Part shown: in pieces, positions 10,357-33,641 of the stretch
Layout of the letters: the number at the start of each line of letters is the position of its first letter
Numbering within the stretch: position 1 is the stretch's first letter
IMG/VR virus record: IMGVR_UViG_3300044614_002195
Coordinates: 1 to 64,000 of that record
DNA length: 64,000 nt
Source of the DNA: a virus
Strand: one strand, 5' to 3'
Notes under the pieces: generated by a model
The model's database searches: none
What the model was told of the DNA's origin: nothing
Seen by the model: only the letters and a program-made list of their open reading frames with translations
Translations under genes and position numbers: made by a program

Positions 10357-10359
10357 AAT

Positions 10360-11376: not shown

Positions 11377-11406
11377 TGGTATTATGAGAGCGAATTAACA
11401 TCGCTC
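11377..11406 (+). promoter_or_regulatory. orphan extended -10 (TGGTATTAT) with hairpin
   Basis: TGGTATTAT (11377-11385) is followed at once by an inverted repeat GAGCG (11388-11392) / CGCTC (11402-11406). It points into the 3' end of the amidase gene on the opposite strand; no plus-strand gene with a good start follows. It could drive an antisense transcript or act as an operator for nrdB. Confidence 0.3.
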
Positions 11407-11434
11407 AACGCAGATTTATAGCTTGCCTTTTGTA

Positions 11435-12521: not shown

Positions 12522-12527
12522 GAAGAG

Positions 12528-12740: not shown

Positions 12741-12761
12741 CTAATCACTAATATAACTAAT

Positions 12762-13454
12762 ATGGCTACTACAAAACAAGAAAAAATAAATAAGCTTAAA
12801 GAATATTTTAAAAACATGAAGTTAGACGCGTCCGTCATGGGTAGAACCCTAGGAAGTCCGACTACTTTTGTAACTCCGCAAATAATGCTAGATGCGTCGG
12901 CTAAACTTTTAAAAATATATGGTCGACAGGCAGATCCAGACGATAGAGACAATCTTGTTTTCTCAAAGTTTATGGGTCCTGAGGACCATGTGAAAGAGCA
13001 TATTGAACATGATGCAGGAAAAATTCAATTTAAAGCTAAAAGCAAACTAAGACAAAAAAGAAACCTCTCCTGGCTACATGCAGGGTTCTTTTCTCCTCAA
13101 GTAAAGTCTGTTTTTGTGGGAAATGCACTGAGTCAGAATATTGAGGGAGTAAATCCTATGGAGCAATATATGCTGGCTCACAAGGTCACTAAGATGGGTG
13201 AAGGCGGGATAGGTTCTACGCAAGCAATCCCAGAAACTTCTCGCGAGGTTAACGAATCACAGTTTGGGCTTCTTGACCCTATCCAGACAGTAGAAGCAAA
13301 CACCATCGGGGTAGTAAATTTTTTCGTTAACAACACGAGGAAAGGCGCTGACGGAAAGCTTTATCGCCAGGTAATTGACAATGCTACAAATAAGCCTGTA
13401 TGGATTGATCATCAAGAGTTCCTTTCTTCTACGATTGAGATTCCTGAGTATTAG
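12762..13454 (+). CDS. RNA polymerase beta subunit, central fragment (fork / Rif region)
   Basis: 230 aa. Residues from about 45 to 225 follow bacterial RpoB from roughly E. coli residue 400 to 610: 'DDRDNLVFSKF' for DDIDHLGNRRI, 'LSQNIEGVNPMEQY' for LSQFMDQNNPLSEI, 'KMGEGGIGS' for ALGPGG, 'PIQTVEANTIG' for PIETPEGPNIG, and 'GKLYRQVID' for ETPYRKV. This is the rifampicin-pocket and fork-loop region beside the active site. It stands alone on the plus strand between two minus-strand clusters, with TATAAC 4 nt before its ATG. Its 3' end overlaps a convergent gene by 26 nt. It would have to assemble with the three other RNA polymerase fragments. Confidence 0.85.
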   Translation: MATTKQEKINKLKEYFKNMKLDASVMGRTLGSPTTFVTPQIMLDASAKLLKIYGRQADPDDRDNLVFSKFMGPEDHVKEHIEHDAGKIQFKAKSKLRQKRNLSWLHAGFFSPQVKSVFVGNALSQNIEGVNPMEQYMLAHKVTKMGEGGIGSTQAIPETSREVNESQFGLLDPIQTVEANTIGVVNFFVNNTRKGADGKLYRQVIDNATNKPVWIDHQEFLSSTIEIPEY

Positions 13455-13884
13455 AGGCAGACCATTTTTGCGTCGGGCATTGTTCGTTTGCTAGCCAAGG
13501 CTTTATATTACTCTCACCAGATAGCACGCAGTGACCTATGTTGGGAGATCTCTCATGACTATCCCAGAACGAGCAACCTTTACAGGCAGTAATGCGACTC
13601 AAGCAATCTTCTTTTTTAACTACAGGGAAGCCTAATATTGCCCAACGGAAAACTGACAGCTCGTAGTTATTTTTTAATGAGTTTAATGAAACTATATCTG
13701 TAGCTGCAGGAGTAGAAACATTGCTAGCTTCTAAAACCTCTAATAGTTTTTCTCTAGATACACTGAGTTCGGTCCTCTGTTCGTTCCACTCACCGTTTTT
13801 TTCAATCTCATTAACAGTGTTTGATGCAGTTTTTGAATAGTTTTGCAAGTCTTTCGAGGTGAATACAATTTTTTCGTTTTGCAT
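13429..13884 (-). CDS. zinc-cluster protein, 151 aa
   Basis: The C-terminal 60 residues carry a four-cysteine pattern 'RITACKGCSFWD', then 'GHCVLSG' and 'NEQCPTQKW', likely one zinc site. The N-terminal 90 residues are helical with no known domain. The next gene upstream ends its middle part with the same R-x-x-x-C-K-G-C ... C-P-x-x-K-W signature, so the two are related in that module. Function is unknown. It overlaps the beta fragment tail-to-tail. Confidence 0.6.
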   Translation of the reverse strand: MQNEKIVFTSKDLQNYSKTASNTVNEIEKNGEWNEQRTELSVSREKLLEVLEASNVSTPAATDIVSLNSLKNNYELSVFRWAILGFPVVKKEDCLSRITACKGCSFWDSHERSPNIGHCVLSGESNIKPWLANEQCPTQKWSASNTQESQS

Positions 13885-13903
13885 AATTTAAAGTCTGTAG
13901 TGT

Positions 13904-14785
13904 TTAAGAAAAAACTAAAAGTTCTTCTTCTTCTTGATAATAGTCTGTAATCCGAGTATTTAATTTTTTAATCTCTTCTTCAAGAATTTGTCTCACAGTA
14001 GGCATGTTTTCATGAATTAAAACTAAAAAATTAGAGTATTGGTTATTTAAATATTCTAAGTTATTAGGAGTTTTAAAATGTTCTATGTTTTCTATGGTTA
14101 GAGTTAAATCAGGTATGTTTCTTAGTTTATTAATAACTAGTAAATCTTTAAATTTAAGAGCAACTACGCAAAAATTAACAATGTCTTCTTCTGTTGTCTC
14201 ATACTGTTCTTTCACCGCATCCTCTTCCCGCCATTTACCTACAGGACATTTTTCATTAGCTATGTTTAATTTATACTTGATGGAGCACCCGCATTTCAAG
14301 CACTGACCTGTACCTGCGAAGGCTTCAATTTTAAAATATTCGCAACCTTTACACAGTTCTAACCTTTTTTGATACTCATTTTCATTTGTGCTGCGTGCTT
14401 GATTTACAGGTATTTTTTTTAACTTTGCCTTTAAATTTTTTACTGTATTGTATATAGCTACTGAGTCATCCTTATCGGGGTCTGGTAAAAATCCTGAGAA
14501 AGGTGCCTGCTTTGGTTGTATAGATTTTTTTTGCTCTACATTTTTTAAAAAGCCTGCCCACGAAGAAGCTAATAAATCTTTTACTTTAGGATCTTCATCT
14601 AATCTTTTTTTCCAATAGCTAAATAAAGCATTTTCTTTTCTCCTATGCATTCTGTGAAATGCTCCATCTAGCAGGTATAAATCTCTTTTATCTGCACGTT
14701 CTTTAATAGTCATGGCGTACATGACTATTTCTAGTTTTTCATATTCTGACAATTTGTTTAATTCTTCTAAAGTAAAATTGTACAT
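13904..14785 (-). CDS. zinc-cluster protein, 293 aa
   Basis: I take the ATG at 14785 ('MYNFTLEELNK'), since a longer frame would overlap the Cys-rich miniprotein gene. The module 'RLELCKGCEYF', 'GQCLKCGCSIKYK' and 'NEKCPVGKW' lies in the middle third (about residues 150-190) and gives five or six cysteines for one zinc ribbon. This C-x-x-C ... C-x-x-C-G-C ... C-P-x-x-K-W pattern is common in proteins of large phages, without known function. The flanks are helical and Lys/Glu-rich. Confidence 0.6.
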   Translation of the reverse strand: MYNFTLEELNKLSEYEKLEIVMYAMTIKERADKRDLYLLDGAFHRMHRRKENALFSYWKKRLDEDPKVKDLLASSWAGFLKNVEQKKSIQPKQAPFSGFLPDPDKDDSVAIYNTVKNLKAKLKKIPVNQARSTNENEYQKRLELCKGCEYFKIEAFAGTGQCLKCGCSIKYKLNIANEKCPVGKWREEDAVKEQYETTEEDIVNFCVVALKFKDLLVINKLRNIPDLTLTIENIEHFKTPNNLEYLNNQYSNFLVLIHENMPTVRQILEEEIKKLNTRITDYYQEEEELLVFS

Positions 14786-14799
14786 ATATAGCTTAATTT

Positions 14800-15021
14800 T
14801 TAATCGTCGTTGCAAGGTGTGTAGACGCAAGAGCAATTTGGACCATTCGGACTATAATCTCCAGGACAGCAGCAGCATTTTGCTCCACTTTTACAATTAC
14901 CGCATGCACAGCCAGTTTCTCCTCCGCAACATTCAGTGGCGGCAGCTGTACCGCACTCACATCCTTTTAATCCACCTCCAGTACAATTACACTCACAGTT
15001 AGATCCTTCGCCTCCCAGCAT
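14800..15021 (-). CDS. cysteine-rich miniprotein (17 Cys in 73 aa)
   Basis: It fits exactly between two minus-strand genes (stop at 14800, next start at 14785). It has 17 cysteines in 73 residues, mostly as Cys-x-Cys, Cys-Cys and one run of four ('AKCCCCPGDY'), with Gly-rich spacers. The pattern is metallothionein-like or that of a disulfide-crosslinked structural peptide. Its position next to a collagen-like fibre gene is compatible with a virion or surface role. No named family is assigned. Confidence 0.6.
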   Translation of the reverse strand: MLGGEGSNCECNCTGGGLKGCECGTAAATECCGGETGCACGNCKSGAKCCCCPGDYSPNGPNCSCVYTPCNDD

Positions 15022-15039
15022 AATTAAATAATTTGTATA

Positions 15040-16569
15040 TTAACCTATGTCTATTCCTGCTCCCGTCCATTCTGGGGAGTTACCGACGATTAACTCACCA
15101 TCTAGACCACTGCTGCCTCCGCTGCTACCGCAACCACTTTCTAAAGTTACATTACTTACATAAGTAAAACTGCTTGTACTTGTACCTCCAGAGCAGTATT
15201 GCATAGACTCTGTGTCTACTTGGAGAGTAAGTCCATCTGCTACGCATCCAATATAGTCGTATATTGCCTGTATTGTGCCATCTAACGACGACCATCCTGC
15301 ATTTACACTAGCTTTCAGCTGAGAAAGGTGTCCTGCAGCTTGAGCTATCCATTGGTAGATGTTCTCAAACGCCGGCTTTAAACTAGCTATTGATCGCTCT
15401 GCGGATTGAAGAGACGACCAGAGATTTTCGCTGTCTTTCCATAGTGAATCGACGTTGTCTAAAGCCCTGACTGCGTCCCAGGAGGCATCTTCGGCGACTG
15501 CTTGAGCTTGAGCTGCCGCAGTGGCCGATGCTGATGCTTCCGCCTTAGCCTCTGCTGCTGCACTAGCCGCTGCTCTTGCTTCTGCATAAGCGTCAGCTGC
15601 TGCACTGGCCGCTGCAAATGCTTCTGCATAAGCATCAGCCGCTGCCTGTGCTGCGGCGTTAATGGCTGCCCATACGTCCGCAAATGCCGACGCGGAAGCC
15701 TCCGCCCATGCGGAGGCAGAGGCGCTTGCATTGCTTCCTGGACACGTAGACGTGGCCTTGCAATTCCAGCAACCGTTCCCTGTGCTTGCGCCTGGGATAT
15801 AACTGTCAGTTTCACTTGCGTGCGCTGCGTCCCATGCTGCGGCTGCGGCGGGATCAGATGGACGTTGGTTGCCAAAGCGGTCAGTTCCCATTACGTATTT
15901 GCATCCCCCTCCTCCGCCTCCGCCGGAATTACATGAACTGCAATCCAATACCGCGCCATCTTTTCCGTCTACCCCATCCTTGCCGTCCTTGCCGTCTTCG
16001 CCGTCTTTTCCATCTTTACCATCGACCCCGTTTGCGCCTGCGAGTCCTTGAGGCCCCTCTGCGCCATCTACTCCATCTCTCCCAATACCGTCTACTCCAT
16101 CTCTCCCATCAATGCCATCTCTCCCATTAACTCCGTCTATACCATCTTTTCCGTTTATACCGTCTACCCCGTTTGCTCCATTGATTCCACTGACGCATGG
16201 AACATATCCAGACAGGGTTAAACTGCAGGTGTTATCTCCAGTCATTCCGTTGTAGCGTAGAGATAAATTGCCTCCACAAACACTGACAGCATTATATATA
16301 GCTAATCTTTCGCAAGCTTTCGGTATTATTTGAGGAATATCTATCGTGGGAGGTAAAGGTATAATATCAGGGAAATTATACGTGCAACCTACGTCAAGTG
16401 GAACCAGAGGTATAGGCGTAACCGGCGGAATTACGCTTGGAGGAAGAGGACAGTCAGGCTTTTGCTCTTCTGGAGACGTGGGGAGATAGCTTACAAAAAA
16501 CTTTTGATCCCAATCTCCTTCAGGAGGTTTACCTAAATGCAAACTGTTGAGATCAATTTTATTGGGCAT
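15040..16569 (-). CDS. collagen-like fibre protein with alanine-rich helical domain
   Basis: 509 aa. After a Pro-rich N-terminus (about 1-85), residues near 130-205 form Gly-X-Y triplets of the 'GKDGEDGKDGKDGVDGKDG' kind with one register break. Then come a Cys/Gly linker ('CSSCNSGGGGGGGCK'), an alanine/serine-rich stretch of about 90 residues (near 270-360, with Trp and Tyr at intervals) likely to form a long helix or coiled coil, and a Ser/Gly-rich C-terminus. This is the make-up of a trimeric phage fibre. Strand-long shadow ORFs over the repeat are ignored. It overlaps the next gene's stop by one base. Confidence 0.8.
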   Translation of the reverse strand: MPNKIDLNSLHLGKPPEGDWDQKFFVSYLPTSPEEQKPDCPLPPSVIPPVTPIPLVPLDVGCTYNFPDIIPLPPTIDIPQIIPKACERLAIYNAVSVCGGNLSLRYNGMTGDNTCSLTLSGYVPCVSGINGANGVDGINGKDGIDGVNGRDGIDGRDGVDGIGRDGVDGAEGPQGLAGANGVDGKDGKDGEDGKDGKDGVDGKDGAVLDCSSCNSGGGGGGGCKYVMGTDRFGNQRPSDPAAAAAWDAAHASETDSYIPGASTGNGCWNCKATSTCPGSNASASASAWAEASASAFADVWAAINAAAQAAADAYAEAFAAASAAADAYAEARAAASAAAEAKAEASASATAAAQAQAVAEDASWDAVRALDNVDSLWKDSENLWSSLQSAERSIASLKPAFENIYQWIAQAAGHLSQLKASVNAGWSSLDGTIQAIYDYIGCVADGLTLQVDTESMQYCSGGTSTSSFTYVSNVTLESGCGSSGGSSGLDGELIVGNSPEWTGAGIDIG

Positions 16570-16907
16570 TAGAGTACCTTGTTAAAAATAGCGTAAAAAA
16601 ATAAAGTCAGAGGTCCTACTATGAAATGTAAAAAAGAACCAAACCAGAGAGCTGAAAAAGCTCCACACCAAAAGCTCAAGCATACAGGGCAAGATACAAG
16701 CCTAACTAAAAACATATCCTTGTAATACTCATGCAAAAAACTGCTATAGTTACCACCATAGCCTTCTAGGTTTAACTTGTTATATTCTTTTAATCTGAAC
16801 AGTACAGGTATCTTTAGCAGATTGAAGTACTCTGCCACCGCATCTGTTCTAAACCATATAAGAATAAAATAAGCTGCCACAAAGGCTATGGTGATAATCG
16901 TGAACAT
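16569..16907 (-). CDS. membrane protein, DUF1360-like motif
   Basis: 112 aa. A first transmembrane helix lies at residues 1-20 ('TIITIAFVAAYFILIWF') and one or two more at 70-112. The sequence 'VSCPVCLSFWCGAF' near residue 75 matches the C-P-x-C-x-S-F-W signature of DUF1360-type phage and bacterial membrane proteins. The function is unknown. It is translationally close to the fibre gene: stop and start share a base at 16569. Confidence 0.6.
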   Translation of the reverse strand: MFTIITIAFVAAYFILIWFRTDAVAEYFNLLKIPVLFRLKEYNKLNLEGYGGNYSSFLHEYYKDMFLVRLVSCPVCLSFWCGAFSALWFGSFLHFIVGPLTLFFYAIFNKVL

Positions 16908-16909
16908 AA

Positions 16910-17200
16910 TTATTTCAATTTATCTAGCTCAATAATTTTTTGGTACAACTCAGTCAGCATGTTTTTTTGAGCTGTGGTAGCGATCCGCATAGACTGTAAT
17001 TGCTGTAATTGATCTGAACCTGAGCGAAATCTTACTTCAAGTTCTTCAAGATTTTTTGACGCTTGCTTAAGAGCATCAGCGATAATCACCAGAGAAATGT
17101 GGGGATTATTAGGAAGTGTTTCTGCGTACAGCGGAAGCTCAATTTTATCTTCTGGCACAACAGCTGTCTGCGCTTCTTTATTTTCTTCAGTTGATTCCAT
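16910..17200 (-). CDS. hypothetical coiled-coil protein, 96 aa
   Basis: It has an acidic N-terminus followed by a helical, Gln/Leu-rich stretch ('EELEVRFRSGSDQLQQLQSM', 'LTELYQKIIELDKLK') likely to be a coiled coil. It sits 2 nt before the membrane protein gene and 5 nt after a 55-codon gene, so it is part of one operon. No family is recognised. Confidence 0.6.
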   Translation of the reverse strand: MESTEENKEAQTAVVPEDKIELPLYAETLPNNPHISLVIIADALKQASKNLEELEVRFRSGSDQLQQLQSMRIATTAQKNMLTELYQKIIELDKLK

Positions 17201-17205
17201 AGTAG

Positions 17206-17373
17206 TTATTCTATTTCGTTGTTATCTGTAAGCAAGTCTTTAATTTCTGCTTGAATTCTTTTTACTTCTTCGTTGTGGGCTTTAACCACGTCACGTTTGT
17301 TTTTTTTAGCTATCTCCAACTCAATTACAAGGTTGTAGATCTTTTGTTCTTTTGTTGTTTGTTGTTCAGGCAT
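17206..17373 (-). CDS. small coiled-coil protein, 55 aa
   Basis: ATG at 17373, TAA at 17208-17206, 5 nt before the next ATG. The product starts MPEQQTTKEQKIYN and is an almost uninterrupted charged helix (Lys/Glu/Asn-rich, Leu/Ile at heptad spacing). The size and close spacing argue for a real gene, coupled to the following coiled-coil gene. Upstream on the minus strand are TTGATC and TATGTT with 17 nt between them, a plausible promoter. Confidence 0.55.
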   Translation of the reverse strand: MPEQQTTKEQKIYNLVIELEIAKKNKRDVVKAHNEEVKRIQAEIKDLLTDNNEIE

Positions 17374-17390
17374 AGTGACTTATTGTTTGA

Positions 17391-17406
17391 TTGAGCTTGT
17401 GCTCAA
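17391..17406. repeat. inverted repeat TTGAGC-N4-GCTCAA
   Basis: A perfect 6-bp palindrome with a 4-nt spacer lies 18 nt upstream of the 55-aa gene, in its probable 5' leader. It could be an operator or a small leader hairpin. Confidence 0.35.
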
Positions 17407-17453
17407 GTAAAAACATACTACAGGTAAAAAAGAGGATCAAGCGATTTTTGCAC

Positions 17454-17481
17454 AAAAAAAGACGCAGCTTTTGGCTGCGCC
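17454..17481 (-). terminator. rho-independent terminator of the collagen-like tail gene
   Basis: On the minus strand GGCGCAGC pairs with GCTGCGTC (one GU pair) around a CAAAA loop, followed by seven Ts (17460-17454). It lies about 30 nt after the stop of the gene at 17510-18079. Confidence 0.8.
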
Positions 17482-17509
17482 TCTTTTTATTCTAGCTAGC
17501 TGTTTAAGC

Positions 17510-18079
17510 TTATGCTCCAGTTGCGCCTGTTGCTCCGGCAGCTCCCGAAGGACCAGCGACACCAGTTGCTCCAGTTGCGCCTGTACTTGTTCCAGTTGCT
17601 CCGGTTGCGCCGGTTGCGCCGATGTTTTCATCGCCAGAAGCTGTGCCTGCAGTAACGCTTACACCGGTAGTTACGGTGATCTTGAGGCGGTCGCCCTGAT
17701 CGTCGGATGTTTCGCCTTCGGCCAGCCCGGAAACAGGACCCACTCTGCCTGTACCACGCACGTACTCAATTACATAACTGATTTTTGCGTGTTGTGTAGC
17801 TCTGAGTGTCAAGGTCCCAGAAACGTCTGTTCCTGGATAGACGTAGAGCTCAGCAGGGTTCGTGGTATGTACGATGACTGTTGCGCGAATGATGTCCCTA
17901 GAAGGAACGTCAGCAAAAACAATAGTGTCTCCGCTTTCGTACTCGTCTGTGTTGATTACTCCATAGCTGATTTGCAACTTTTCGTAACGGCTGCTCTTGA
18001 GTCCACCGATGCTTGTTTCGCCTTCAGGCATTTCACTCTCAGGACGTTCGTATTTTTGGATATGTACTAGATTTGGCAT
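17510..18079 (-). CDS. structural protein with collagen-like GAT-repeat C-terminus
   Basis: 189 aa. The N-terminal 140 residues are beta-rich ('ATVIVHTTNPAELYVYPGTD', 'TLTLRATQHAKISYVIEYV'). The last 40 consist of Gly-Ala-Thr type Gly-X-Y triplets with an interruption. This combination is common in phage fibre or head-decoration proteins. It is a monocistronic unit: a 138-nt gap upstream and a terminator downstream. Confidence 0.65.
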   Translation of the reverse strand: MPNLVHIQKYERPESEMPEGETSIGGLKSSRYEKLQISYGVINTDEYESGDTIVFADVPSRDIIRATVIVHTTNPAELYVYPGTDVSGTLTLRATQHAKISYVIEYVRGTGRVGPVSGLAEGETSDDQGDRLKITVTTGVSVTAGTASGDENIGATGATGATGTSTGATGATGVAGPSGAAGATGATGA

Positions 18080-18217
18080 ATTAGTTTATTTTTATTTAGT
18101 TGTTTTTGTTTTTAACAACAGAAAGTCAGGATGCAACAGGAACATTGTTCCCAGAGGATCGAGGATCTACTCCATTGCTAAAAGTATTATTACCTAGGGT
18201 AAAAGTTTTTGCAAGAG

Positions 18218-18625
18218 TTAAATCCAGAATGGATAGCCTACCCTATTAGGTCTAGGCTCCATCCTATAGTCTACGAAAAGTTCCTCGTCTTCAGGTATAT
18301 GCCTATTTGCGACAATCACACGATCTCTGACAATCCAATCGCAATTAGGTTCTCTTGAATGGTTTATGAATGAAAACTTAGAATACTTGTCGTTGGTTAG
18401 GCAGTACTCATTATCTAGCATAACATAGGCATTTCTAGAAATCTGCTCTTCTGTAAGATCAGCGTATTTCATTTTATACCAGCTGGATGGAAAAAGGTTG
18501 TAGTCAACAACAACGTCGCCAGGCTCAAAAGCTCTTGATGAGAACAACCCAAAGCCTTCTACGTGAGACTTTTTTACGTATGTTTCTGGTCCGTTATCTT
18601 CTTCAACTCGAATTATAAGACTCAT
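18218..18625 (-). CDS. SET-domain protein (putative lysine methyltransferase)
   Basis: 135 aa, essentially a bare SET domain. The SAM- and substrate-site motifs are in order: 'SHVEGFGLFSSRAF' (G-x-G at 24-26), 'FINHSREPNC' (Asn88-His89-Ser90, Pro-Asn-Cys 93-95) and 'EELFVDY' ending in Tyr120, the usual catalytic tyrosine. There are no pre-SET or post-SET cysteines. SET enzymes methylate protein lysines and are rare in bacteriophages; the known viral example is the chlorella virus enzyme. The gene lies 62 nt downstream of the RNA polymerase beta-N fragment on the same strand, so the two may be co-expressed. Its target is unknown. Confidence 0.87.
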   Translation of the reverse strand: MSLIIRVEEDNGPETYVKKSHVEGFGLFSSRAFEPGDVVVDYNLFPSSWYKMKYADLTEEQISRNAYVMLDNEYCLTNDKYSKFSFINHSREPNCDWIVRDRVIVANRHIPEDEELFVDYRMEPRPNRVGYPFWI

Positions 18626-18687
18626 AGAGAATAGTTATTATAAGCTACGTCTACAGCATTTCACTAAAAAAGTTCAGTTTTTTTAGG

Positions 18688-19353
18688 CTAATCTCCACCG
18701 ATTAGAATGCCGTACAGCTTGTCTACCTCGTCCCCCGTGTACTGACTTCTATTAGCGTTGTAAATTTTTTCTCCCCAAGCCTGCTTGATACTCATATCTA
18801 AAAGTCCAAGGTCTTTTAGAAGACCATAAAGACGAATTTGAGAATTTTTTATCATCAGTACAAAAAGTTGTTTTTCAGGTAGAAATAATATACGTCCAGA
18901 CTGTCCTGTTCTAGCCTCTGGATTGATGTGAGATTCTGGAATTCCGTCTTGTCTGATCCTGGAATATACACCTGGTAGAAGTCTTTGTTGATTAAGACTC
19001 TCATACTCAGAGCCATTATAAATCACAGTATTATGATTCGTTACATAAGGAATGTGTGCAATCGTTGTAGACTTAGACTCTAGCACTTTACCGGATGCTT
19101 TATGTATAAGATCTACTGTTCCCTTCAAAGGTACTGTAAGGTCTTTCTTTTCGAGTACAGCTTTTTTCTGTGTTGCTGTAGTGATCGTAGGTGCATCTAT
19201 CTTTAGATTTTTAGCCTGCAGTTTAAAATCCTGAGTCTCAATAGCATTTATTTTTTTACCAAAAGAATCTATCGCGGTATCAAATAGCATCTTCCTCAAT
19301 CCGACAGGATCAAAGAAAGGTCTAGTGTTACTTGGAGGATTAGTTGGTTGCAT
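18688..19353 (-). CDS. RNA polymerase beta subunit, N-terminal fragment
   Basis: 221 aa. Residues from about 70 to 195 follow RpoB from roughly E. coli residue 85 to 235: 'LTVPLKGTVDLI' (protrusion), 'IAHIPYVTNHNTVIYNGSEY' for [20 protein letters not shown], 'LLPGVYSR' for RSPGVFFD, then 'GRILFLPEK' and 'QIRLYGLLKDLG' for the start of the lobe. Most of the lobe that should follow is missing here and does not reappear in the central fragment. The gene overlaps its upstream neighbour by 14 nt. It is on the strand opposite to the other three RNA polymerase fragments. Confidence 0.8.
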   Translation of the reverse strand: MQPTNPPSNTRPFFDPVGLRKMLFDTAIDSFGKKINAIETQDFKLQAKNLKIDAPTITTATQKKAVLEKKDLTVPLKGTVDLIHKASGKVLESKSTTIAHIPYVTNHNTVIYNGSEYESLNQQRLLPGVYSRIRQDGIPESHINPEARTGQSGRILFLPEKQLFVLMIKNSQIRLYGLLKDLGLLDMSIKQAWGEKIYNANRSQYTGDEVDKLYGILIGGD

Positions 19354-19558
19354 GCTTGTTTAATTTTGCTTTTACAGCTCTAGTAATATTTATCCAGGTC
19401 GTATGGTACTCTTCAGAATTTTGGAAGTCTTCTAGAGAAAGAGAGATATCAAAAGATTCTCCAGGGTAAGCAATCTTGTCATCAGCTCCTCCAATCTCCT
19501 CCATAAATGCGCCTTTTATGTTTATTGATGGTATATAGATTTGTTTATTGGCTGCCAT
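19340..19558 (-). CDS. hypothetical protein, 72 aa
   Basis: It ends 14 nt inside the beta-N gene, so the two are probably coupled. It is acidic and Ile/Ser-rich ('IYIPSINIKGAF', 'SFDISLSLEDFQN') and mostly beta in its first half. No family is recognised. Because of the coupling, a role as a small partner of the RNA polymerase is conceivable but unsupported by sequence. Confidence 0.5.
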   Translation of the reverse strand: MAANKQIYIPSINIKGAFMEEIGGADDKIAYPGESFDISLSLEDFQNSEEYHTTWINITRAVKAKLNKHATN

Positions 19559-19601
19559 AATTTATCTTAAAATAAATGGTCAGCCTGTTTAAAGCAAGCA
19601 A

Positions 19602-20258
19602 TTACGATTGTTCTTTTAAAAGCTTTTCAAGATAGGCTTTGTTTTCTTCTTTGTTAAGCATCTCTGCCATTTCTGGGTACTTAGAAACGAGTTCTATTTT
19701 TTTACTGTCATCAGGGGATGTTGCTGTGTGTGCTTGCTGCGGAACAGACACAGAGTCGATCACTTTATTAGCTAATCTCATTTGAGCTGCCCTAGCTAAT
19801 GCGTCTGTGACCAGATCTGCCTTTTTAGCTAGTTCTCCTGTTTTCTTAAAATTGTCCACAAAACCTTCGCCCATGTTTGGGGAAGACAATGAACCCACTT
19901 CTCCTGGAGACATATCAAAGATAGTTTTGGGCTTTGCTAGGTTTACGTTTATAATAGGTCTCAAGCCTCCAGGTTGTGCTGAGTGAGATAATCCTCCAAA
20001 TCTGTTATTCAACATCGACGGAAGTAAATTACCAGCTACAGGAGCAAGCCCCTCCATACCTTTTTCAACATACCCAACACCTTTTGATGTTAAATAATTT
20101 GCTCCTGCGCCTGCGGCTGTAAGTCCTCCGCCTACAAGAAGAGGTCTAGCTAGCTTGCCTGCGCCTGCAGCTATAGGGCTAAGTATCTTACCCAAATTTG
20201 CCTTTTTTTGAAAGCTGTCGTCTATACCCTTCGATAGTTCTGTCCAATCAAGTTTCAT
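19602..20258 (-). CDS. glycine-zipper virion-type protein, 218 aa
   Basis: I take the ATG at 20258 ('MKLDWTELSKGI'), just after the upstream stop, over an in-frame start inside that gene. Residues 20-60 contain Gly/Ala-rich segments ('ILSPIAAGAGKLARPLLVGG', 'TAAGAGANYL'), a glycine zipper able to insert in membranes. The rest is helical. Several such proteins follow one another here, in the manner of phage internal or ejection proteins. Confidence 0.55.
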   Translation of the reverse strand: MKLDWTELSKGIDDSFQKKANLGKILSPIAAGAGKLARPLLVGGGLTAAGAGANYLTSKGVGYVEKGMEGLAPVAGNLLPSMLNNRFGGLSHSAQPGGLRPIINVNLAKPKTIFDMSPGEVGSLSSPNMGEGFVDNFKKTGELAKKADLVTDALARAAQMRLANKVIDSVSVPQQAHTATSPDDSKKIELVSKYPEMAEMLNKEENKAYLEKLLKEQS

Positions 20259-20259
20259 A

Positions 20260-21261
20260 TTAAGCGTAAGGTTCAAGCTCAACTCTGGTAGGCAGAGACT
20301 CACTCATATACTTCTCAGGCTCTTCACGCATCTTCTTTCTAAGGAGATATGTGAGATACGCTCCGCCTGCAGCTGTACCTACAAGACCAGTTGCGGCAGC
20401 ATCCATTGCTGGCTGGAATGGTTTTTTGGCTACACCTAAAGTATCTGAGAGTAATCTCTTGATGGCGCCTTCCTCAATCTCAGGCTCTTGAAAATCTGCA
20501 GTTTTACCAAATAACGTTGTGTGAGCTATACCGTTACAGAAAGCATCTACGCAAGGAGTTTCAATTTCAGCTGAACCTGTTTTAATTCTGGATAATGTGT
20601 TGATGTACTCCTTCTGTGCATCCATCAATTCTTTATGAATTCTGGCACGCTCTTGCATATAATAGTCTCTTTTAGCGTTATTAAAGCCTTCCTGTCCTCC
20701 TGAAAGCATACGTAAAGGTTCGTTGCTAGTTCTGAATGCCCTGGCAAATAACCCAGGTGAATCTCCATAACTTTCAGTACTTGCCATCTTCTCTGAGTCA
20801 TTATCAAGAGCTAGACGTAAGTTTCGCTGTTTAATTTTTTCATTGATGAGCGCATCAAGCAAAGCTCCTCCACCGAGACCTGCGGCCGCCCCAAGCAATC
20901 CTCCTTGCATAGTTCTTTTTGCGCCATGCAGAAAACCTCTTGATTGGTTTCGTAAAGCTGATCCTGCTCCCCCTCCTGCAATTCCGCCAAGTAATGCGAG
21001 CGGAGCTTTCGTCACATTGACGTCTTCACTGCTTTCGTTATCTTGAGCCATTTTATCTCTAACAGGAAGCATGCTTACAGGAACAGGGATTCTCAATGTG
21101 CCGTCGTCCTTGAACATCTCCTGTCTTTCTAGCAGCTTTCTTTTTTCCTGCTCTTTTGCCAACTGAAGGGCACTAAATAAACTTCTACCAAAAAGCTGAG
21201 ACGCTTCTTGAGTTTCTTCTGGAGATAAAGGTAGTGGTGTGGAGGCTTTTTTATGTTGCAT
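20260..21261 (-). CDS. glycine-zipper virion-type protein, 333 aa
   Basis: A Gln/Glu-rich helical N-terminus is followed by a Gly/Ala-rich segment near residues 88-140 ('LLGGIAGGGAGSALRN', 'GGLLGAAAGLGGGALLDALI') and a second hydrophobic Gly/Ala segment near 290-310 ('AATGLVGTAAGGAYLTYLL'). The pattern suggests a membrane-active structural protein. No family is recognised. The genes before and after are spaced by 1-6 nt, which indicates one operon. Confidence 0.55.
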   Translation of the reverse strand: MQHKKASTPLPLSPEETQEASQLFGRSLFSALQLAKEQEKRKLLERQEMFKDDGTLRIPVPVSMLPVRDKMAQDNESSEDVNVTKAPLALLGGIAGGGAGSALRNQSRGFLHGAKRTMQGGLLGAAAGLGGGALLDALINEKIKQRNLRLALDNDSEKMASTESYGDSPGLFARAFRTSNEPLRMLSGGQEGFNNAKRDYYMQERARIHKELMDAQKEYINTLSRIKTGSAEIETPCVDAFCNGIAHTTLFGKTADFQEPEIEEGAIKRLLSDTLGVAKKPFQPAMDAAATGLVGTAAGGAYLTYLLRKKMREEPEKYMSESLPTRVELEPYA

Positions 21262-21267
21262 AATCTT

Positions 21268-21982: not shown

Positions 21983-21984
21983 AC

Positions 21985-22356: not shown

Positions 22357-22359
22357 AAA

Positions 22360-23340: not shown

Positions 23341-23342
23341 AG

Positions 23343-26715: not shown

Positions 26716-26856
26716 TGGTGTTTCTTAGCGTTATTACGAGAGTCATTGAGAGAGGAAGGAAGAGACACTATATAAGTATATACCTGTGTTTGGACCCTGC
26801 GGAGGCTTTGGTTGCTTTTTAAGAGTAAACATTATATAATTTCTACTACCCGACCT

Positions 26857-27159
26857 ATGCGCGACATCGAAAAAATAAAAGCCATCACTATACGCGGTAA
26901 AAGATACAACTTTGTTGTAAAGAAGCTTAAGGCCGCCAGAGGGCTGACCGAGCATCCGGACACCAAGAATAAGACAGTCTACATAGACTCCAGGGAAAGG
27001 GGCAAGGAATTACTTGCTACTTTGATCGACGAATTCTTTCATTGCGCTATATGGGAGGTACAAAACGATATAGTGGATCAGATATCCGACGACATGGCAG
27101 ATGCTCTCTGGAGGTGTGGGTTGAGGTTTAAAGACGAAGAAGATTCTAAGGAAGGTTGA
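26857..27159 (+). CDS. zincin-like protein with degenerate HExxH, 100 aa
   Basis: The ATG at 26857 ('MRDIEKIKAITIRG') is preferred over a TTG 45 nt upstream. TATATAAT lies about 20 nt before it. 'LLATLIDEFFHCAIWEV' followed by 'SDDMADALWRCGLRF' matches small phage proteins with a metallopeptidase-like 'LIHELLHAxxxDLSE...ADALWRLGY' pattern, but the first His of HExxH is replaced by Asp (D-E-F-F-H), so catalysis is doubtful. It is the first gene of the long plus-strand cluster, 31 nt before the RNA polymerase fusion gene. Confidence 0.5.
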   Translation: MRDIEKIKAITIRGKRYNFVVKKLKAARGLTEHPDTKNKTVYIDSRERGKELLATLIDEFFHCAIWEVQNDIVDQISDDMADALWRCGLRFKDEEDSKEG

Positions 27160-27190
27160 TATTTGTTTTGATGTAGCGTAACATCTAGCT

Positions 27191-30184
27191 ATGACCGGTA
27201 AAAATTTTAAGTATGTTTTAGAAAGTGGAAAACTTAAAAAAGTTTCCTCTAGCGTAAAGGCCAAGTATAGGATTGCGGACCCTTCCGAGTTTTTTAGTCC
27301 TGTTACAAATCTTATTCCAGGACTTAGCTCTGTTTCCGGTGCTCGTGTACTTATCGGAGATAAGTCGTCTGTTCAGGCGATGACGCTTGTTAATAGAGAG
27401 GCCCCACTAGTTCAGTCATCACCTAAAGGAAACGTAGCGAGTTTCAACAAGCAGTTTAGTAGCTTTGTGAGTGTGTCGTCCAGAGTGGCAGGTAAAGTTA
27501 CTAAAATAGATGAAGAACATATCACGATTAAAGATATCGTCGGCAAAGAGCATCAGCACGATATTTACCATAACTATATAGTAGGTAGGGATAGTCACAT
27601 CCATCACACACCTGCGGTAAAAGTTGGAGACAAAGTCGAGGTAGGTCAACTTCTCGCCACTTCAAACCATTCTGATAATAAGGGCACACTCGCGATAGGT
27701 ATGAATTTAAAAACCGCGATCATGCCGTTTAGATCTCTGAACTTTGAAGACGCCTTGGTTATATCAGAGACTGCTGCAAAAAAGTTAGAAGGCGAACAAT
27801 TGATGCCTATCAGGATGGAAATAGCCAGAGGCATATCTACAGACAAGGACAGATATATTTCTCTTTTTCCTAATAAGTTTTATAATGATCAATTGGCGAA
27901 TATAGACTCAAACGGGGTGGTAAAAAGAGGCGTGGTATTAAAACATGGCGACCCTGTGATATTAGCTTTTCAGCCAAAAACTTTAAAATCTTTAGATATA
28001 CAATTAGGTAAATTGGCGAAGGTAATTAGAAATGCTTTTTCAGATATATCTAATACCTGGAGTTATGAATATGACGGAGAGGTGACTGACGTGGCAGTTA
28101 CAAGCAAGCTCATAACGGTTACAGTGAAAACAAAAAGACCCATGAGTCATGCAGACAAACTTAATATGCCCTTCGGGGCAAAAGGAGTTGTGTCCATTGC
28201 TCCGGACACGCAAATGCCTCAGGGTGAAGACGGAAAGCCTGTAGATGTACTACTTAATACCATGAGTATTACCTCACGCGTGGCTCCTGGTCTTGTGAGC
28301 GCCATGAGCTTAGGTAAACTTGCAGAGAAAAAGGGTAAAGCCATTAACATGACAGGCTTTACTGAAGGCTCGGCAGTTCAAAAAGTGTCAGATGTTTTGA
28401 AGAAAAATAATATAAAAGATACCGAAAAACTATATGATCCTATATCAGGAAAACATATTGAAGTACTTACCGGTCCTTTATATTTTAATAGACTACATCA
28501 TATTGCCGAGGATAAGATTTCCACAAGGTCTGCAGCTACCTCTTATGATATTAATATGCAGCCCTCAAAAGCAGGGTCTGAAGAAAAAGCAAAAAGAATA
28601 GGTAATTTAGCTACAACAGTAGCATTATCTAACGATGCTAAAGCTGTGCTGAAGGATATCGCTACAGTTAGAGCGACAAAGAACGACGACTTCTGGACTG
28701 CGATCAAACTAGGACATACACCTCCACCTCCTAAAGTACCTTTTATTTTCGATAAATTTCTAGGACACCTACGAGGAGCTGGAGTCAATGTACAACAAGA
28801 AGGTTCAAAGTTCCATATTCTTCCTCAGACAGACAAAGACATTGAAGCTATGTCTAAAGGGGAAATTAAAGAGCCTTTAACTTATAAGCTTAAAAAAGAC
28901 GAGCTAGTACATGAGGACGACGGGCTATTTGATCCTACCCTGGTAGGTATACACGGGGATCAATATAATCACATAGTTTTGCAGCATAGCATTCCTAATC
29001 CTATGGCCGAGGAGCATATAAGGAAGCTTCTGAAATTAACTAAAGTTAATTATGATAAAGCTATAGTCTCAGGAAAGCTTGAGAAAGATCTAAAAGCTAT
29101 TGATATCGAGAATAAGATAGTTGAGTTGAAGAAAATTATCTCCTCAGATAAAAAATCAGGAAGAGATGATGCTGTAAAAGCTTTAAGCTTTTTAACTATG
29201 CTTAAACAGAACAATCTTAAGTTATCAGATATGATGCTTACTAAAGTGCCTGTTATTCCTGCGCAATATAGACCGGTAATGGTGCAAGGAGATCAGACAT
29301 TAACAGCAGATGTTAATGAACTTTATAAAGATCTTATGCTGGTAAATAGATCTCTGGGAGAAGCCAAAGATATGCCTGAAGTTGCAGCTGAGCATATAGA
29401 AACAGCTAAGCAACAAGTTTATGACGGAGTTAAGGCTGTCTATGGTTTGGGTGATCCGATTAGACAAAAGAGTATAGAAAAAAGCTATAAAGGACTATTA
29501 GCTTCTGCCTTAGGTTTACAGGGAGGGTCAGCCAAAGAATCAATGTTCCAGGCAAAGGTGGTAAACAAACCAATTGATCTTGTTGGAAGAGCTGTATTGT
29601 TGCCAGACTCAAAACTTGATCTTAACCAGGCAAGCATTCCTCAGCAGGTAGCCTGGGATATATACTCTCCTTTCATCATTAGAAGAATGGTGCGTCAAGG
29701 AATTCCGGCAACTAAAGCCAGAGAGTATCTTGAGAACAAACATCCTCTTGCATCCGCAGCTCTACAAGAAGAGATGCTGGACAGACCAGGGATAGTTACA
29801 CGCGACCCTCAGGTATCTAAATATAACTTCCAAGGGATGTATCTAAAGATCAATCCTGACCCTAAAGATTTTTCAATTAAACTAAATCCTCTAGTGTTTA
29901 AAGGCTATGGAGGAGATTGTGACGGCGATCAGCTTAACGTACAACTCCCCGCTTCAGATGACGCAAAAGAAGAAATTAAAGAAAAGCTGCTGCCTGAAAA
30001 AAACCTAATATATCATAGGTCGTTTTCACCTATATACACACCAGCAAACGAGTCCGCTACAGGACTATTTGCTGCCAGTTACGAAGATAATAAAAATAAA
30101 CCTACAAAATATAACTCCGCCCAGGAAGTTGTTCGAGATTTTTTAGCGGGAAAACTTGATCTAGGTGATAGGGTTGAGTTATAA
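27191..30184 (+). CDS. RNA polymerase fusion: beta C-terminal part + beta-prime N-terminal part
   Basis: 997 aa. Residues 1-480 follow RpoB from about E. coli residue 640 to its end: 'LIPGLSSVSGARVLIG', 'GMNLKTAIMPF' and 'NFEDALVISE', 'ADKLNMPFGAKGVVS' with both active-site lysines (Lys323, Lys331, spaced 8 apart as K1065/K1073), 'HHIAEDKISTRS', and 'AIKLGHTPPPPKVPF' near the beta C-terminus. From about 490, RpoC begins: 'DGLFDPTLVG', 'VIPAQYRPVM', 'VGRAVLLPDSKLDL' and the catalytic 'GGDCDGDQL' (Asp909, 911, 913) in place of NADFDGD. The flap and the N-terminal zinc domain are deleted. It ends just before the TTVGR region where the next RNA polymerase gene starts. Confidence 0.97.
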   Translation: MTGKNFKYVLESGKLKKVSSSVKAKYRIADPSEFFSPVTNLIPGLSSVSGARVLIGDKSSVQAMTLVNREAPLVQSSPKGNVASFNKQFSSFVSVSSRVAGKVTKIDEEHITIKDIVGKEHQHDIYHNYIVGRDSHIHHTPAVKVGDKVEVGQLLATSNHSDNKGTLAIGMNLKTAIMPFRSLNFEDALVISETAAKKLEGEQLMPIRMEIARGISTDKDRYISLFPNKFYNDQLANIDSNGVVKRGVVLKHGDPVILAFQPKTLKSLDIQLGKLAKVIRNAFSDISNTWSYEYDGEVTDVAVTSKLITVTVKTKRPMSHADKLNMPFGAKGVVSIAPDTQMPQGEDGKPVDVLLNTMSITSRVAPGLVSAMSLGKLAEKKGKAINMTGFTEGSAVQKVSDVLKKNNIKDTEKLYDPISGKHIEVLTGPLYFNRLHHIAEDKISTRSAATSYDINMQPSKAGSEEKAKRIGNLATTVALSNDAKAVLKDIATVRATKNDDFWTAIKLGHTPPPPKVPFIFDKFLGHLRGAGVNVQQEGSKFHILPQTDKDIEAMSKGEIKEPLTYKLKKDELVHEDDGLFDPTLVGIHGDQYNHIVLQHSIPNPMAEEHIRKLLKLTKVNYDKAIVSGKLEKDLKAIDIENKIVELKKIISSDKKSGRDDAVKALSFLTMLKQNNLKLSDMMLTKVPVIPAQYRPVMVQGDQTLTADVNELYKDLMLVNRSLGEAKDMPEVAAEHIETAKQQVYDGVKAVYGLGDPIRQKSIEKSYKGLLASALGLQGGSAKESMFQAKVVNKPIDLVGRAVLLPDSKLDLNQASIPQQVAWDIYSPFIIRRMVRQGIPATKAREYLENKHPLASAALQEEMLDRPGIVTRDPQVSKYNFQGMYLKINPDPKDFSIKLNPLVFKGYGGDCDGDQLNVQLPASDDAKEEIKEKLLPEKNLIYHRSFSPIYTPANESATGLFAASYEDNKNKPTKYNSAQEVVRDFLAGKLDLGDRVEL

Positions 30185-30243
30185 GTTTATTTACCGACAA
30201 CACAGGTAAAACAATAGTCTTTATTTTTATATTATTCCAGGTT

Positions 30244-30444
30244 ATGCTAGATGAAAATATATGGTTGCAATTAAGCGACGATGAAAAGTTTGCTGAATTG
30301 GAAGCATATCTAGACGAAGTTATAACTATTGATAGCGGAAAGCATGCCTTAAGTAATTCCAGAGAACAGGGCAAGTTAACTGCTATAAAAAAAGAGCTAC
30401 AAGAGAAAATTTTTAAAATAATAGAACTAGAGAACGCAATATGA
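30244..30444 (+). CDS. hypothetical protein, 66 aa
   Basis: Lies between the two beta-prime genes. It is acidic and helical ('LSDDEKFAELEAYLDEVI', 'LTAIKKELQEKIFKIIELE'), with no recognised family. Its stop overlaps the next start by 4 nt (ATGA), so it is coupled to the Gln-rich gene. Confidence 0.55.
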   Translation: MLDENIWLQLSDDEKFAELEAYLDEVITIDSGKHALSNSREQGKLTAIKKELQEKIFKIIELENAI

Positions 30445-31367
30445 AAATCGCTGAATTAATGCAGTCGTATGACGCAATAGCTAAAAATCGTAACTACCCA
30501 GTCAAAACTGCTTTTGTGGCTAATCCTAATGTTCCTCCTCCTCAGCCAGGACAGCCTGTACAGCAGGCATTACCAGCTGGACAGCAAGACCCTAACCAGC
30601 AAGCAATGCAGCAACAGCAGGCAGCCCCACAACAACCTGTTCCACAGCAGGCTCCTGCACCGCAAGCGGCACCTCAAGATCCTAGCCAACAGACAATGCA
30701 GCAGTCTCCACCTGCCCAGCAGACCCAGGGAGACTCAAACGGTAACGGCACATTAATGGACGAAGTCATGAGTGCCGCCCAACAACTTCCACCTGAAGCC
30801 CAACAGCAGGTCGCACCCATACTTCAGCAGCTACAGCAAATGCCCGCAGATCAGAGAGAACAGCAGTTAATGCAAATTTTATCAGAGATTTCAGGGCAGC
30901 AGCAGCCTCAAGAACAAGCGCAGCCTCAACCCCAACCTCAACCCCAACCTCAACAAGATCAAGGCATGGTGGCTCAAGCGGCAGATGATATGATGATGCA
31001 GGCACCGCAGCAGGATCCCACGATGGAAGCCCAGCCCATGGACCCTCAGCAGCAGGCATCAGACGACGCAGCTCAGGCCGAAAATTCAGCAATAGAAGCC
31101 AAGAACGAGTTAGATAACGTAAGAGTATCTCTATCGGTAAGAGAACTTTTAGACCTGGTAGGCAAAGGTTCCGCCACAGCGTCATTATTAAAAGTTAAAC
31201 AACTAGCCGACACCCATCAGCAAAAGATGGAACAGACTAGACAAAAGGCCGAAAGCGATCAGCAAAAAGCTCAAGCAGACCAAGAGCAGCAGCAACAGCA
31301 GCAGCAACAAGGATTGATGGGTGACGGAGGTATATATTCAGCCCCTATGGGTGGTGCACCTCAATAA
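30441..31367 (+). CDS. Gln/Pro-rich low-complexity protein, 308 aa
   Basis: After a structured-looking N-terminus ('MKIAELMQSYDAIAKNRNYP'), residues 35-215 are dominated by Gln and Pro, including a 'QPQPQPQPQ' tract. The C-terminal 90 residues form a charged helix ('SVRELLDLVGKGSATASLLK') and end in another Gln run. It is probably disordered. Its setting between the two RNA polymerase genes and its coupled start make it part of that operon. Function is unknown; a scaffold-like or internal virion role is possible. Confidence 0.6.
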   Translation: MKIAELMQSYDAIAKNRNYPVKTAFVANPNVPPPQPGQPVQQALPAGQQDPNQQAMQQQQAAPQQPVPQQAPAPQAAPQDPSQQTMQQSPPAQQTQGDSNGNGTLMDEVMSAAQQLPPEAQQQVAPILQQLQQMPADQREQQLMQILSEISGQQQPQEQAQPQPQPQPQPQQDQGMVAQAADDMMMQAPQQDPTMEAQPMDPQQQASDDAAQAENSAIEAKNELDNVRVSLSVRELLDLVGKGSATASLLKVKQLADTHQQKMEQTRQKAESDQQKAQADQEQQQQQQQQGLMGDGGIYSAPMGGAPQ

Positions 31368-31377
31368 TTTTAAACAT

Positions 31378-31788
31378 ATGCCAGACTTTACAAAACTTGC
31401 AGCCTACCTGGACTCTTTTTCAAAAGAAAGTCCAGACTATGATACAGCTCAATATATAAAGTCAAAGATAGCTGCAGACCTTAAGGACACTAATACCGTA
31501 AACAACGGAGAAGATGCAGAGCTGGACGACAATGATGTAACCATGAGTACACCTGAGCAGCAAACTCAGGAAAACCAAGAAGGTGAAGAAATGCACGGAG
31601 CCTTCAAAGAGCTAGATGTCATGAATCAGCTTAAAGAAGAAAAAGAAGAAGTTAAGCTGCCCGGACAAAAAGACGAAAATGGAAATACCAAATTAGACGT
31701 ATCTACCGAAGAAACTTTCGGAGACAATGTTTTGAATCGTAAAAGCGCTTCACTCTTTGAAGTAATAAAACAAAAGCTTAAAAAATAA
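31378..31788 (+). CDS. acidic hypothetical protein, 136 aa
   Basis: The ATG at 31378 ('MPDFTKLAAYLDSF') falls just after the stop of the Gln-rich gene. The TAA stop overlaps the ATG of the beta-prime C-terminal gene (TAATG at 31786-31790), so the two are coupled. The protein is strongly acidic, Glu/Asn/Gln-rich and probably disordered in the middle, with a short C-terminal helix ('SLFEVIKQKLKK'). No family is recognised. Confidence 0.6.
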   Translation: MPDFTKLAAYLDSFSKESPDYDTAQYIKSKIAADLKDTNTVNNGEDAELDDNDVTMSTPEQQTQENQEGEEMHGAFKELDVMNQLKEEKEEVKLPGQKDENGNTKLDVSTEETFGDNVLNRKSASLFEVIKQKLKK

Positions 31789-33641
31789 TGGCTACAACTA
31801 CAGTAGGGAGAGTTCTTTTAAAGTTTTTTACTCCCCCTCAATTCCATAGTTTGATAGACGGCCTTGTCTTGGATAAAAAGGGTATATCTAAGCTTTTTGC
31901 TGAAATAGCAGAAAAGGCGCCTGACGAATACAGCAAGATTGCTTCAGAATTAACTCGTCTAGGATTTGAGATAGCCACGAGGCAAGGCACATCCATAACT
32001 TTAAAAGACCTAATTTCTCCAATAGATAAAGAAAAGGTATGGAAAGACTTTGAGAGTTATAAAGAAAAAATAGAAGCTTCGTCGGATACTCAGCAGGTCA
32101 AAGACCATAAAATATTTGATAAGTATAATCAAATGATGTCTGACATTGAAAAAGACATTCTTGATAAAGGACTAACTGAGAACAAATCTTTGGCTAAAAT
32201 TATTCTAGCAGGGTCTAGAGGTTCACCTGCACAGTATAGAGGAACTATAGCCACTCAAGGTTTTGTGGTGGATGCAGAAGGCAAGCCTAAGATGGATATT
32301 CCAATTAAAAGCTCTTATGCTGAAGGTTTATCCCTGCCTGAATATCTGGCTACTTCTTTTGGTACACGTACTGGAGAAGTCTTGAAAAAGATATCCGTTG
32401 CTCAAGGCGGCTACGGGTCAAAGCAATTCGCCAGGGCACTTATGCCTTTACAGGTCGTAGAAAACGATTGCGAGACGCTAAACGGGATTACCGTATCTGT
32501 AAGCGACAAGGAATCAGCAGGAGCATATTTAGCAAAGGCTGTTGAAAACTATAACAGGAACAATGAAGTAACTTTTAAAATGCTTAATGATCTTAATAAT
32601 AAGAACATTAAGTCTATAGTCATAAGATCCCCGATGACCTGCCAATCTAACAAGAAGCATCATTCAGGCGGATTGTGCCAGATGTGTGTAGGTAAAAGAG
32701 AAAAAGGTCTTGCAGCTTTAGATAGCTATATAGGCCTGGTGGCAGGTACGGCTGTAGCTGAACCTTTGACCGAAAGCGCCATGAAAGCAAGACATGGTGG
32801 AGGTGCTGCGACATCACTAGCGGGGAGTCATTTAGGTTTTAAACTAATTAATCAGTTAGCTAACATTCCTAAGACATTTGTAGGTAAAGCCCCTCTAGCT
32901 CAAGAAGATGGATTTGTAACTGCGTTAGAACCTGCGGCAGCTGGAGGATTTTTTATCTCGGTAAATAATCACGAGCATTATATAGGCATTGATCAGCAGC
33001 CTACAGTTAAACTTGGTGATCGCGTAGAACAAGGACAGGTACTCAGTTCAGGTCTGGTAGATCCCAGAGAAGCTGTTAAATATAGAGGTATAGGAGACGG
33101 TAGAAAGTATTATATGGAGGCCATGAAGAAAGCCTTCGACGATAGTGGTCTAGGAGTTAATAGAAGAAATTTTGAGCTTATAGCCAAAGCAGCCATAGAT
33201 CATGTAAAGATCACAGACCCTGAAGGTATCGGAGATTATCTTCCAGATCAGGTTGTATCATATTCAGCTATAGAGAAAGACTATACACCTAGAGCAGACT
33301 CTAAAATGCTTAGAGTAGATTTGGCTTATGGTAAGTATTTAGAGAAGCCTGAAATGCATTACACTATAGGTACAAGAATAACTACAGGTGTTATTAAAGA
33401 TTTAAAAGATCATGAGATCGAGGCAATCCTTGTTAACGATAATGAACCTAATTTTGAGCCTACAATGGTGAGGCTTGTAGATATTCCAGAACATCATGAC
33501 GATTGGATGCATGTACTTAACAGTACAAATCTAGCGAAAAGGTTCGTCAATATGGTTAACAGAGGGTCAACATCCGACACAAAGGGCCCAAGTCCAATTC
33601 CAGGTTTGGCCTACGGTGTAGGCTTCGGTCAAAAAGATTAA
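31788..33641 (+). CDS. RNA polymerase beta-prime subunit, C-terminal part
   Basis: 617 aa. It starts exactly where the fusion protein stops in RpoC terms ('TTTVGRVLLKFFTP' for TTVGRAILWMIVP). It then carries 'AGSRGSPAQYRG' and 'YAEGLSLPEYLATSFGTRTG' (bridge-helix region), 'VVENDCETLNGI', and the trigger-loop segment 'EPLTESAMKARHGGGAA' for EPGTQLTMRTFHIGGAAS. Cys228, Cys285, Cys297 and Cys300 match the second zinc site of bacterial beta-prime. The C-terminal 270 residues are a shortened jaw and clamp region with 'VNRRNFELIAKAA' for VNDRHFEVIVRQM. No lineage-specific insertion is seen. Confidence 0.97.
   Translation: MATTTVGRVLLKFFTPPQFHSLIDGLVLDKKGISKLFAEIAEKAPDEYSKIASELTRLGFEIATRQGTSITLKDLISPIDKEKVWKDFESYKEKIEASSDTQQVKDHKIFDKYNQMMSDIEKDILDKGLTENKSLAKIILAGSRGSPAQYRGTIATQGFVVDAEGKPKMDIPIKSSYAEGLSLPEYLATSFGTRTGEVLKKISVAQGGYGSKQFARALMPLQVVENDCETLNGITVSVSDKESAGAYLAKAVENYNRNNEVTFKMLNDLNNKNIKSIVIRSPMTCQSNKKHHSGGLCQMCVGKREKGLAALDSYIGLVAGTAVAEPLTESAMKARHGGGAATSLAGSHLGFKLINQLANIPKTFVGKAPLAQEDGFVTALEPAAAGGFFISVNNHEHYIGIDQQPTVKLGDRVEQGQVLSSGLVDPREAVKYRGIGDGRKYYMEAMKKAFDDSGLGVNRRNFELIAKAAIDHVKITDPEGIGDYLPDQVVSYSAIEKDYTPRADSKMLRVDLAYGKYLEKPEMHYTIGTRITTGVIKDLKDHEIEAILVNDNEPNFEPTMVRLVDIPEHHDDWMHVLNSTNLAKRFVNMVNRGSTSDTKGPSPIPGLAYGVGFGQKD

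Follow-up and report, generated by a model that had tools for sequence, protein, structure and literature searches.

Four open reading frames predicted to encode one bacterial-type RNA polymerase in a phage lineage with a divided beta subunit

We describe here four open reading frames (ORFs) in a 64,000-nucleotide stretch of viral DNA (positions 1 to 64,000 of the IMG/VR record IMGVR_UViG_3300044614_002195, hereafter the window) which between them reproduce the beta and beta-prime subunits of bacterial RNA polymerase. Together the four proteins very probably make up the large-subunit core of a single bacterial-type RNA polymerase, encoded by the phage and devoid of alpha and omega. To a wider reading we give about even chances, namely that the family possesses natural single-polypeptide polymerases of bacterial type (whole beta and beta-prime, about 2000 aa, with no alpha found) and that the clade of the window has broken this fused enzyme up into four virion-packaged, trans-assembling subunits encoded on both strands.

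Four pieces that tile beta and beta-prime

All four ORFs were found exactly at the coordinates and on the strands proposed in a first-pass annotation made from the letters alone, and their products of 221, 230, 997 and 617 amino acids (Table 1) sum to 2065, the total it had estimated. Aligned end to end with Escherichia coli beta and beta-prime, they tile the sequence from beta residue 1 to beta-prime residue 1379 in order and with zero overlap, which bears out the proposed succession of RpoB and RpoC pieces with nearly seamless joints. The pieces cover, in E. coli numbering, beta 1-374, beta 375-621, beta 622-1342 plus beta-prime to 550, and beta-prime 569-1379; there is no internal loss at the beta joints and no gap between the beta pieces in this alignment. 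The E. coli stretches left without counterpart are 225-306, 315-349, 936-1046 and 1126-1179 of beta and 63-88 (the N-terminal zinc ribbon), 141-181 and 942-1128 of beta-prime, several of which coincide with known lineage-specific inserts of the E. coli polymerase. All three cuts fall in linkers whose length varies among relatives, and the ends of the four proteins carry no extra sequence.

The assignment of beta-mid, the fusion protein and beta-prime-C is backed by Pfam, PHROGs and Protein Data Bank (PDB) comparisons. Beta-mid matches Pfam Rpb2 domain 3 (3.4e-6, passing the family cutoff) and many RpoB chains in PDB (best 1.1e-6), beta-prime-C matches Rpb1_5 (1e-13), and the presence of Rpb2_6 (1e-46), Rpb1_2 and Rpb1_1 in the 997-aa ORF agrees with the earlier view that beta-C is joined to beta-prime-N. 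The first-pass annotation had made its case depend on a profile match to RpoB in both small proteins. Pfam provides it for beta-mid; for beta-N no RpoB family is matched in Pfam, where a sub-threshold Tim44 is the sole match, and single-sequence matches to RpoB are weak (1.3e-3), but the protein matches the N-terminus of gp206 of phage Arash at 3e-18, and its AlphaFold model (predicted local distance difference test, pLDDT, 88.9) has only RNA polymerase or RpoB entries among its 50 best PDB matches (1e-10 and weaker, probability 1.00). None of the best 60 PDB matches is labelled as a phiKZ, AR9 or other phage chain, and judged by the match labels the polymerase sequence resembles bacterial RpoB and RpoC.

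The hallmarks of double-barrel polymerases are present, i.e. the aspartates of the beta-prime DxDGD triad and both beta barrel lysines; also retained are R1106 of beta, R352, R425 and R731 of beta-prime, the bridge helix, M932 and H936 of the trigger loop and the four C-terminal zinc cysteines of beta-prime. The Rif pocket carries the substitutions D516E, H526L, R529K and S531T, from which rifampicin resistance of the four-piece polymerase is predicted. At the position of beta-prime N458, a residue in contact with the sugar of the nucleotide being added, the four-ORF clade has G, several relatives with two or three ORFs, Arash included, have A, and 28 of 36 single-chain forms have N.

Profile searches of the whole 198-kb record retrieved beta-N, beta-mid and the beta catalytic barrel once each, and no intact rpoB, which the first-pass annotation had named as a finding that would overturn it, was met elsewhere. 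The beta barrel gene is likewise single in 14 of 15 other records, the gene of the remaining one (locus L152) being in two parts (records may be incomplete). The beta pieces co-occur as beta-mid (plus strand), beta-N (minus) and beta-C/beta-prime-N (plus) in 12 IMG/VR contigs with 12 different dataset numbers, a count that leaves out a contig 100% the same as the window in beta-N and beta-mid. Amino-acid identity of beta-N among these contigs is about 57-78%, and IMG/VR scans with each piece returned relatives that are mostly about 57-88% identical. The ratio of non-synonymous to synonymous substitution rates (dN/dS) is 0.054 for beta-mid and 0.070 for beta-N (unsaturated pairs from sets of 17 and 12 sequences), the corresponding ratio for polymorphisms (pN/pS) is 0.16-0.23 and similar across all four genes, and there are no internal stops; the pieces are under strong purifying selection.

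Table 1. Positions in the window of the polymerase pieces, their motifs and the adjoining virion gene
Feature	Positions	Strand	Description
beta-N subunit	18688..19353	-	221 aa; E. coli beta 1 to ~374, without insert 225-349
beta-N motif NTVIYNGSEYESLNQQRLLPGVY	18964-19032	-	within the beta-N ORF
beta-mid subunit	12762..13454	+	230 aa; E. coli beta ~375-621
Rif/fork region of beta-mid	13119-13208	+
beta-C/beta-prime-N fusion	27191..30184	+	997 aa; one chain with both catalytic barrels
beta barrel motif ADKLNMPFGAKGV	28151..28189	+	two catalytic lysines, E. coli K1065 and K1073
beta/beta-prime fusion joint	28781..28867	+	last conserved beta segment GVNVQQEG leads directly to first beta-prime segment SKFHILPQTDKDIEAMSKGEI
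segment aligning with beta-prime clamp helices	29312..29458	+	kept in the alignment to E. coli
active-site motif GGDCDGD	29909..29929	+	E. coli NADFDGD; N458 position is G
beta-prime-C subunit	31788..33641	+	617 aa
bridge helix of beta-prime-C	32319-32441	+
trigger-loop M/H of beta-prime-C	32772-32804	+
homologue of Arash gp218 (virion protein)	33715..35925	+	follows beta-prime-C in Arash and D69 too

Fused relatives and the order of fusion and cutting

In Arash gp206 (1525 aa) and its counterpart in Vibrio phage D69 (1527 aa), beta-N, beta-mid, beta-C and beta-prime-N form a single chain, and a second gene encodes beta-prime-C. All four pieces have colinear counterparts in Arash gp206 and gp216, with an overall identity of about 30%, and, as in the window, beta is joined to beta-prime-N, beta-prime is cut at the corresponding site and a sigma factor gene is present; unlike in the window, where beta occupies three ORFs, the whole of beta lies in the chain with beta-prime-N, so that two polypeptides stand against four. 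Passages of the Arash paper label gp206 simply as beta and gp216 as beta-prime; nowhere in its text does the term 'fusion' appear (PMC10585845). The GenBank Vibrio phages D69, D181 and D148 have the two-chain layout of Arash (checked in D69 only), and in D69 the uncut beta, another difference from the window, is encoded by a gene annotated as hypothetical.

A wider IMG/VR scan yielded 189 stretches encoding relatives, of which 77 loci were kept. The commonest form among them is a single ORF of about 1900-2170 aa with whole beta and beta-prime, the remaining loci having two ORFs, or three with an additional beta-prime cut. Longer single ORFs of 2550-3777 aa carry insertions, with intein or LAGLIDADG motifs in all three cases tested; this range counts locus L133, whose single 3777-aa ORF (6827-18157) contains several insertions, and insertions bearing such motifs were seen in the polymerase genes of L133, L120, L099, L146 and L152. 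In L152 the insertion lies within the motif of the catalytic beta lysines. A separate three-piece form was rejected for this locus in view of that intein and a short frameshift downstream, and we treat it as a two-ORF polymerase with an intein and possibly a sequence error. Thus, the joining of beta-C to beta-prime-N, which the first-pass annotation had thought new together with the division of beta, is a family trait seen in gp206, D69 and the IMG/VR single chains, and the window lineage is set apart only by its two cuts in beta.

The fused gene appears to be essentially viral, since among 84,980 bacterial and archaeal genomes scanned it turned up in two contigs of metagenome-assembled genomes (MAGs) only. 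These contigs (L132 and L133), in bacterial MAGs assigned to Deltaproteobacteria and Eisenbacteria, are probably phage contigs binned with their hosts and give a hint at host groups. Almost no PHROGs matches, one weak portal match apart, were obtained near the single-chain genes, which are taken as viral from their IMG/VR classification, their shared layout and the genome scan. The rpoB and rpoC genes in several GenBank 'phage' records, OR844998, OR849902 and MT836236 among others, look ordinarily bacterial; two such records put in the tree described below group with E. coli, and these entries are probably bacterial contamination.

The tree (40 rows, 1992 columns, rooted on three bacteria) gave 100/100 support to the multi-ORF clade, to the four-ORF clade and to the latter together with its two-ORF sister group (L126, L146 and L152), and the four-ORF clade nests among phages with an intact fused beta. 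A constraint placing it outside all other phages was rejected by the approximately unbiased (AU) test (p = 0.003). This nesting and the AU result indicate that beta was fused first and then cut twice; the two beta cuts postdate the joining of beta to beta-prime-N, and the beta split is derived in this family. An ancestrally whole beta-prime and one already cut were not separated by the AU test (p = 0.41), on which account an initial impression that single-chain forms were ancestral was dropped. In the proposed course of events beta would first have become joined to beta-prime-N, the chain would then have been cut, in the window lineage, at two linkers of variable length, and the small pieces beta-N and beta-mid would have been relocated, one of them with inversion.

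Fused rpoB and rpoC genes occur in Helicobacter and Wolbachia, where beta is joined to beta-prime in gene order; unlike the window polymerase these are cellular, whole and accompanied by alpha and omega. Polymerases of the phiKZ/AR9 type resemble the window polymerase in doing without alpha and omega, in comprising 4-5 polypeptides and in a beta-prime cut after the catalytic barrel, and differ in having beta and beta-prime parts on separate polypeptides, no sigma and two polymerases, virion and non-virion, per phage (PMC7598289, PMC7824862). In the window the 997-aa fusion places beta and beta-prime on one polypeptide, and the record holds a single beta barrel gene. The first-pass description of phiKZ/AR9-type beta and beta-prime as each cut in two needs correction, the virion polymerase having beta in three pieces (PMC7824862) and the enzyme at least 5 polypeptides (PMC7598289). 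The nearest published group, probably overlapping with this polymerase family, is that of the mReC phages, tailed-phage contigs whose bacterial-like beta and beta-prime form a deep separate clade (Weinheimer and Aylward 2020, PMC7481178). That study mentions fusion for crAssphage only, and its filter of an NADxDGD motif, at least 800 aa and both COGs (PMC7481178) would miss the four-ORF clade, the window motif being GGDCDGD. Searches for the major capsid protein family PF07068, as a test of mReC kinship, gave no match anywhere, and 3 of 16 records showed a match to terminase PF03237. In the literature searched, which covered subscription journals thinly, neither the fused nor the four-piece form was found described.

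Sigma factor, virion genes and the putative enzyme

The gene after that of beta-prime-C encodes the gp218 homologue, and this order, common to the window, Arash and D69, supports placing beta-prime-C in the virion gene block; homologues of another Arash structural protein and then of the major capsid protein follow. According to the Arash paper, virion mass spectrometry ranked gp206 as top protein with 3516 spectra, against 1210 for gp216, sigma factor gp10 was also present in virions, and carry-over of polymerase proteins from infected cells is the alternative that the authors raise (PMC10585845). Given that Arash virions contain both homologues, the four-piece enzyme is probably, by analogy, a virion-packaged, alpha-less polymerase. 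As for companion factors, alpha had no match in any of the 16 records searched, sigma region 2 was matched in 11 of them, and the window's own record encodes a sigma-like ORF of 213 aa near position 140 kb, classed as a sigma factor in PHROGs (5e-12). The clamp helices of beta-prime are the sigma-docking region of bacterial polymerase.

From the Arash virions, the gene order, the sigma and alpha survey and the clamp-helix region together, we infer an alpha-less, sigma-using, virion-packaged polymerase of four chains. The 997-aa protein would carry both catalytic barrels; what remains of the protrusion/lobe, as well as the fork/Rif wall, would come from beta-N and beta-mid, and the bridge helix, trigger loop and zinc site from the 617-aa protein. 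The pieces would assemble non-covalently into an active enzyme, which would work with the phage-encoded sigma-like factor and, like that of Arash, travel in the virion to serve early transcription. An E. coli polymerase split between modules is still active, according to a later paper (PMC7483510, citing Severinov 1996).

Near the small pieces, a gene for a SET-domain protein of 135 aa (18218-18625, minus strand, Pfam 4e-15), with the fold usually seen in protein lysine methyltransferases, directly adjoins that of beta-N, and two genes for collagen-like repeat proteins (15040-16569 and 17510-18079, both minus, the second match weak) lie between beta-mid and beta-N.

Competing explanations and significance

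Multi-piece polymerases of phiKZ-type phages have been argued to be early forms (PMC7824862), and by extension the window lineage could have kept a primitive multi-piece polymerase whose parts the fused phages joined later. We regard an ancestral split as quite unlikely, with the four-ORF clade inside fused-beta phages at full support and its outside position rejected; it would also require several independent fusions at identical joints. The small size and scattering of the ORFs, one of them inverted, might suggest that beta-N and beta-mid are decaying fragments in a phage that uses host beta or has no polymerase of its own, yet such decay is highly improbable for genes without internal stops, with dN/dS of about 0.05-0.07, single-copy in the record and leaving no gap between the beta pieces. 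Nor is there more than a slight chance that the two proteins act alone, e.g. as decoys for host polymerase or sigma, outside the phage enzyme: they are encoded away from the catalytic genes, but they are exactly the parts missing from the 997-aa protein and are covalently present in the chain of relatives.

The products of separate genes might instead be rejoined after translation by trans-splicing inteins or similar means, given that relatives, the sister lineage L146/L152 among them, have inteins in their polymerase genes. The four proteins, however, lack additional terminal sequence, the cuts lie in variable linkers and the sole intein placed to the residue sits in the beta active site, not in a linker, which makes rejoining very unlikely. 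The window having been taken from an IMG/VR record, an assembly artefact of one metagenome contig could also be imagined; the recurrence of order and strands in 12 contigs of 12 dataset numbers refutes it and reduces its probability almost to nothing.

Several observations weigh against a single four-chain enzyme, which we nonetheless favour. The beta-N and beta-mid genes lie apart from each other and far from the rest, a layout that does not explain the stoichiometry. Neither alpha nor omega was matched in the window's own record, which may be incomplete, the sigma match of the 213-aa ORF is under the Pfam cutoff, and the AlphaFold model of beta-mid was of low confidence (pLDDT 62) and was not used. 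Besides, the G at the N458 position may entail an altered ribose selection.

If the dismantling of a fused enzyme is true, evolution would be free to raise as well as lower the number of subunits in a cellular-type RNA polymerase. The graded natural series of one, two, three and four ORFs shows where a bacterial-type polymerase tolerates cuts and that fusion can precede re-fragmentation, and amounts to a natural experiment in cutting and reassembling a transcription enzyme. Two questions thereby come within reach of experiment: by what means a phage polymerase comes together when there is no alpha, and whether the divided state of such enzymes is primitive, as has been proposed for phiKZ phages, or a derived one.
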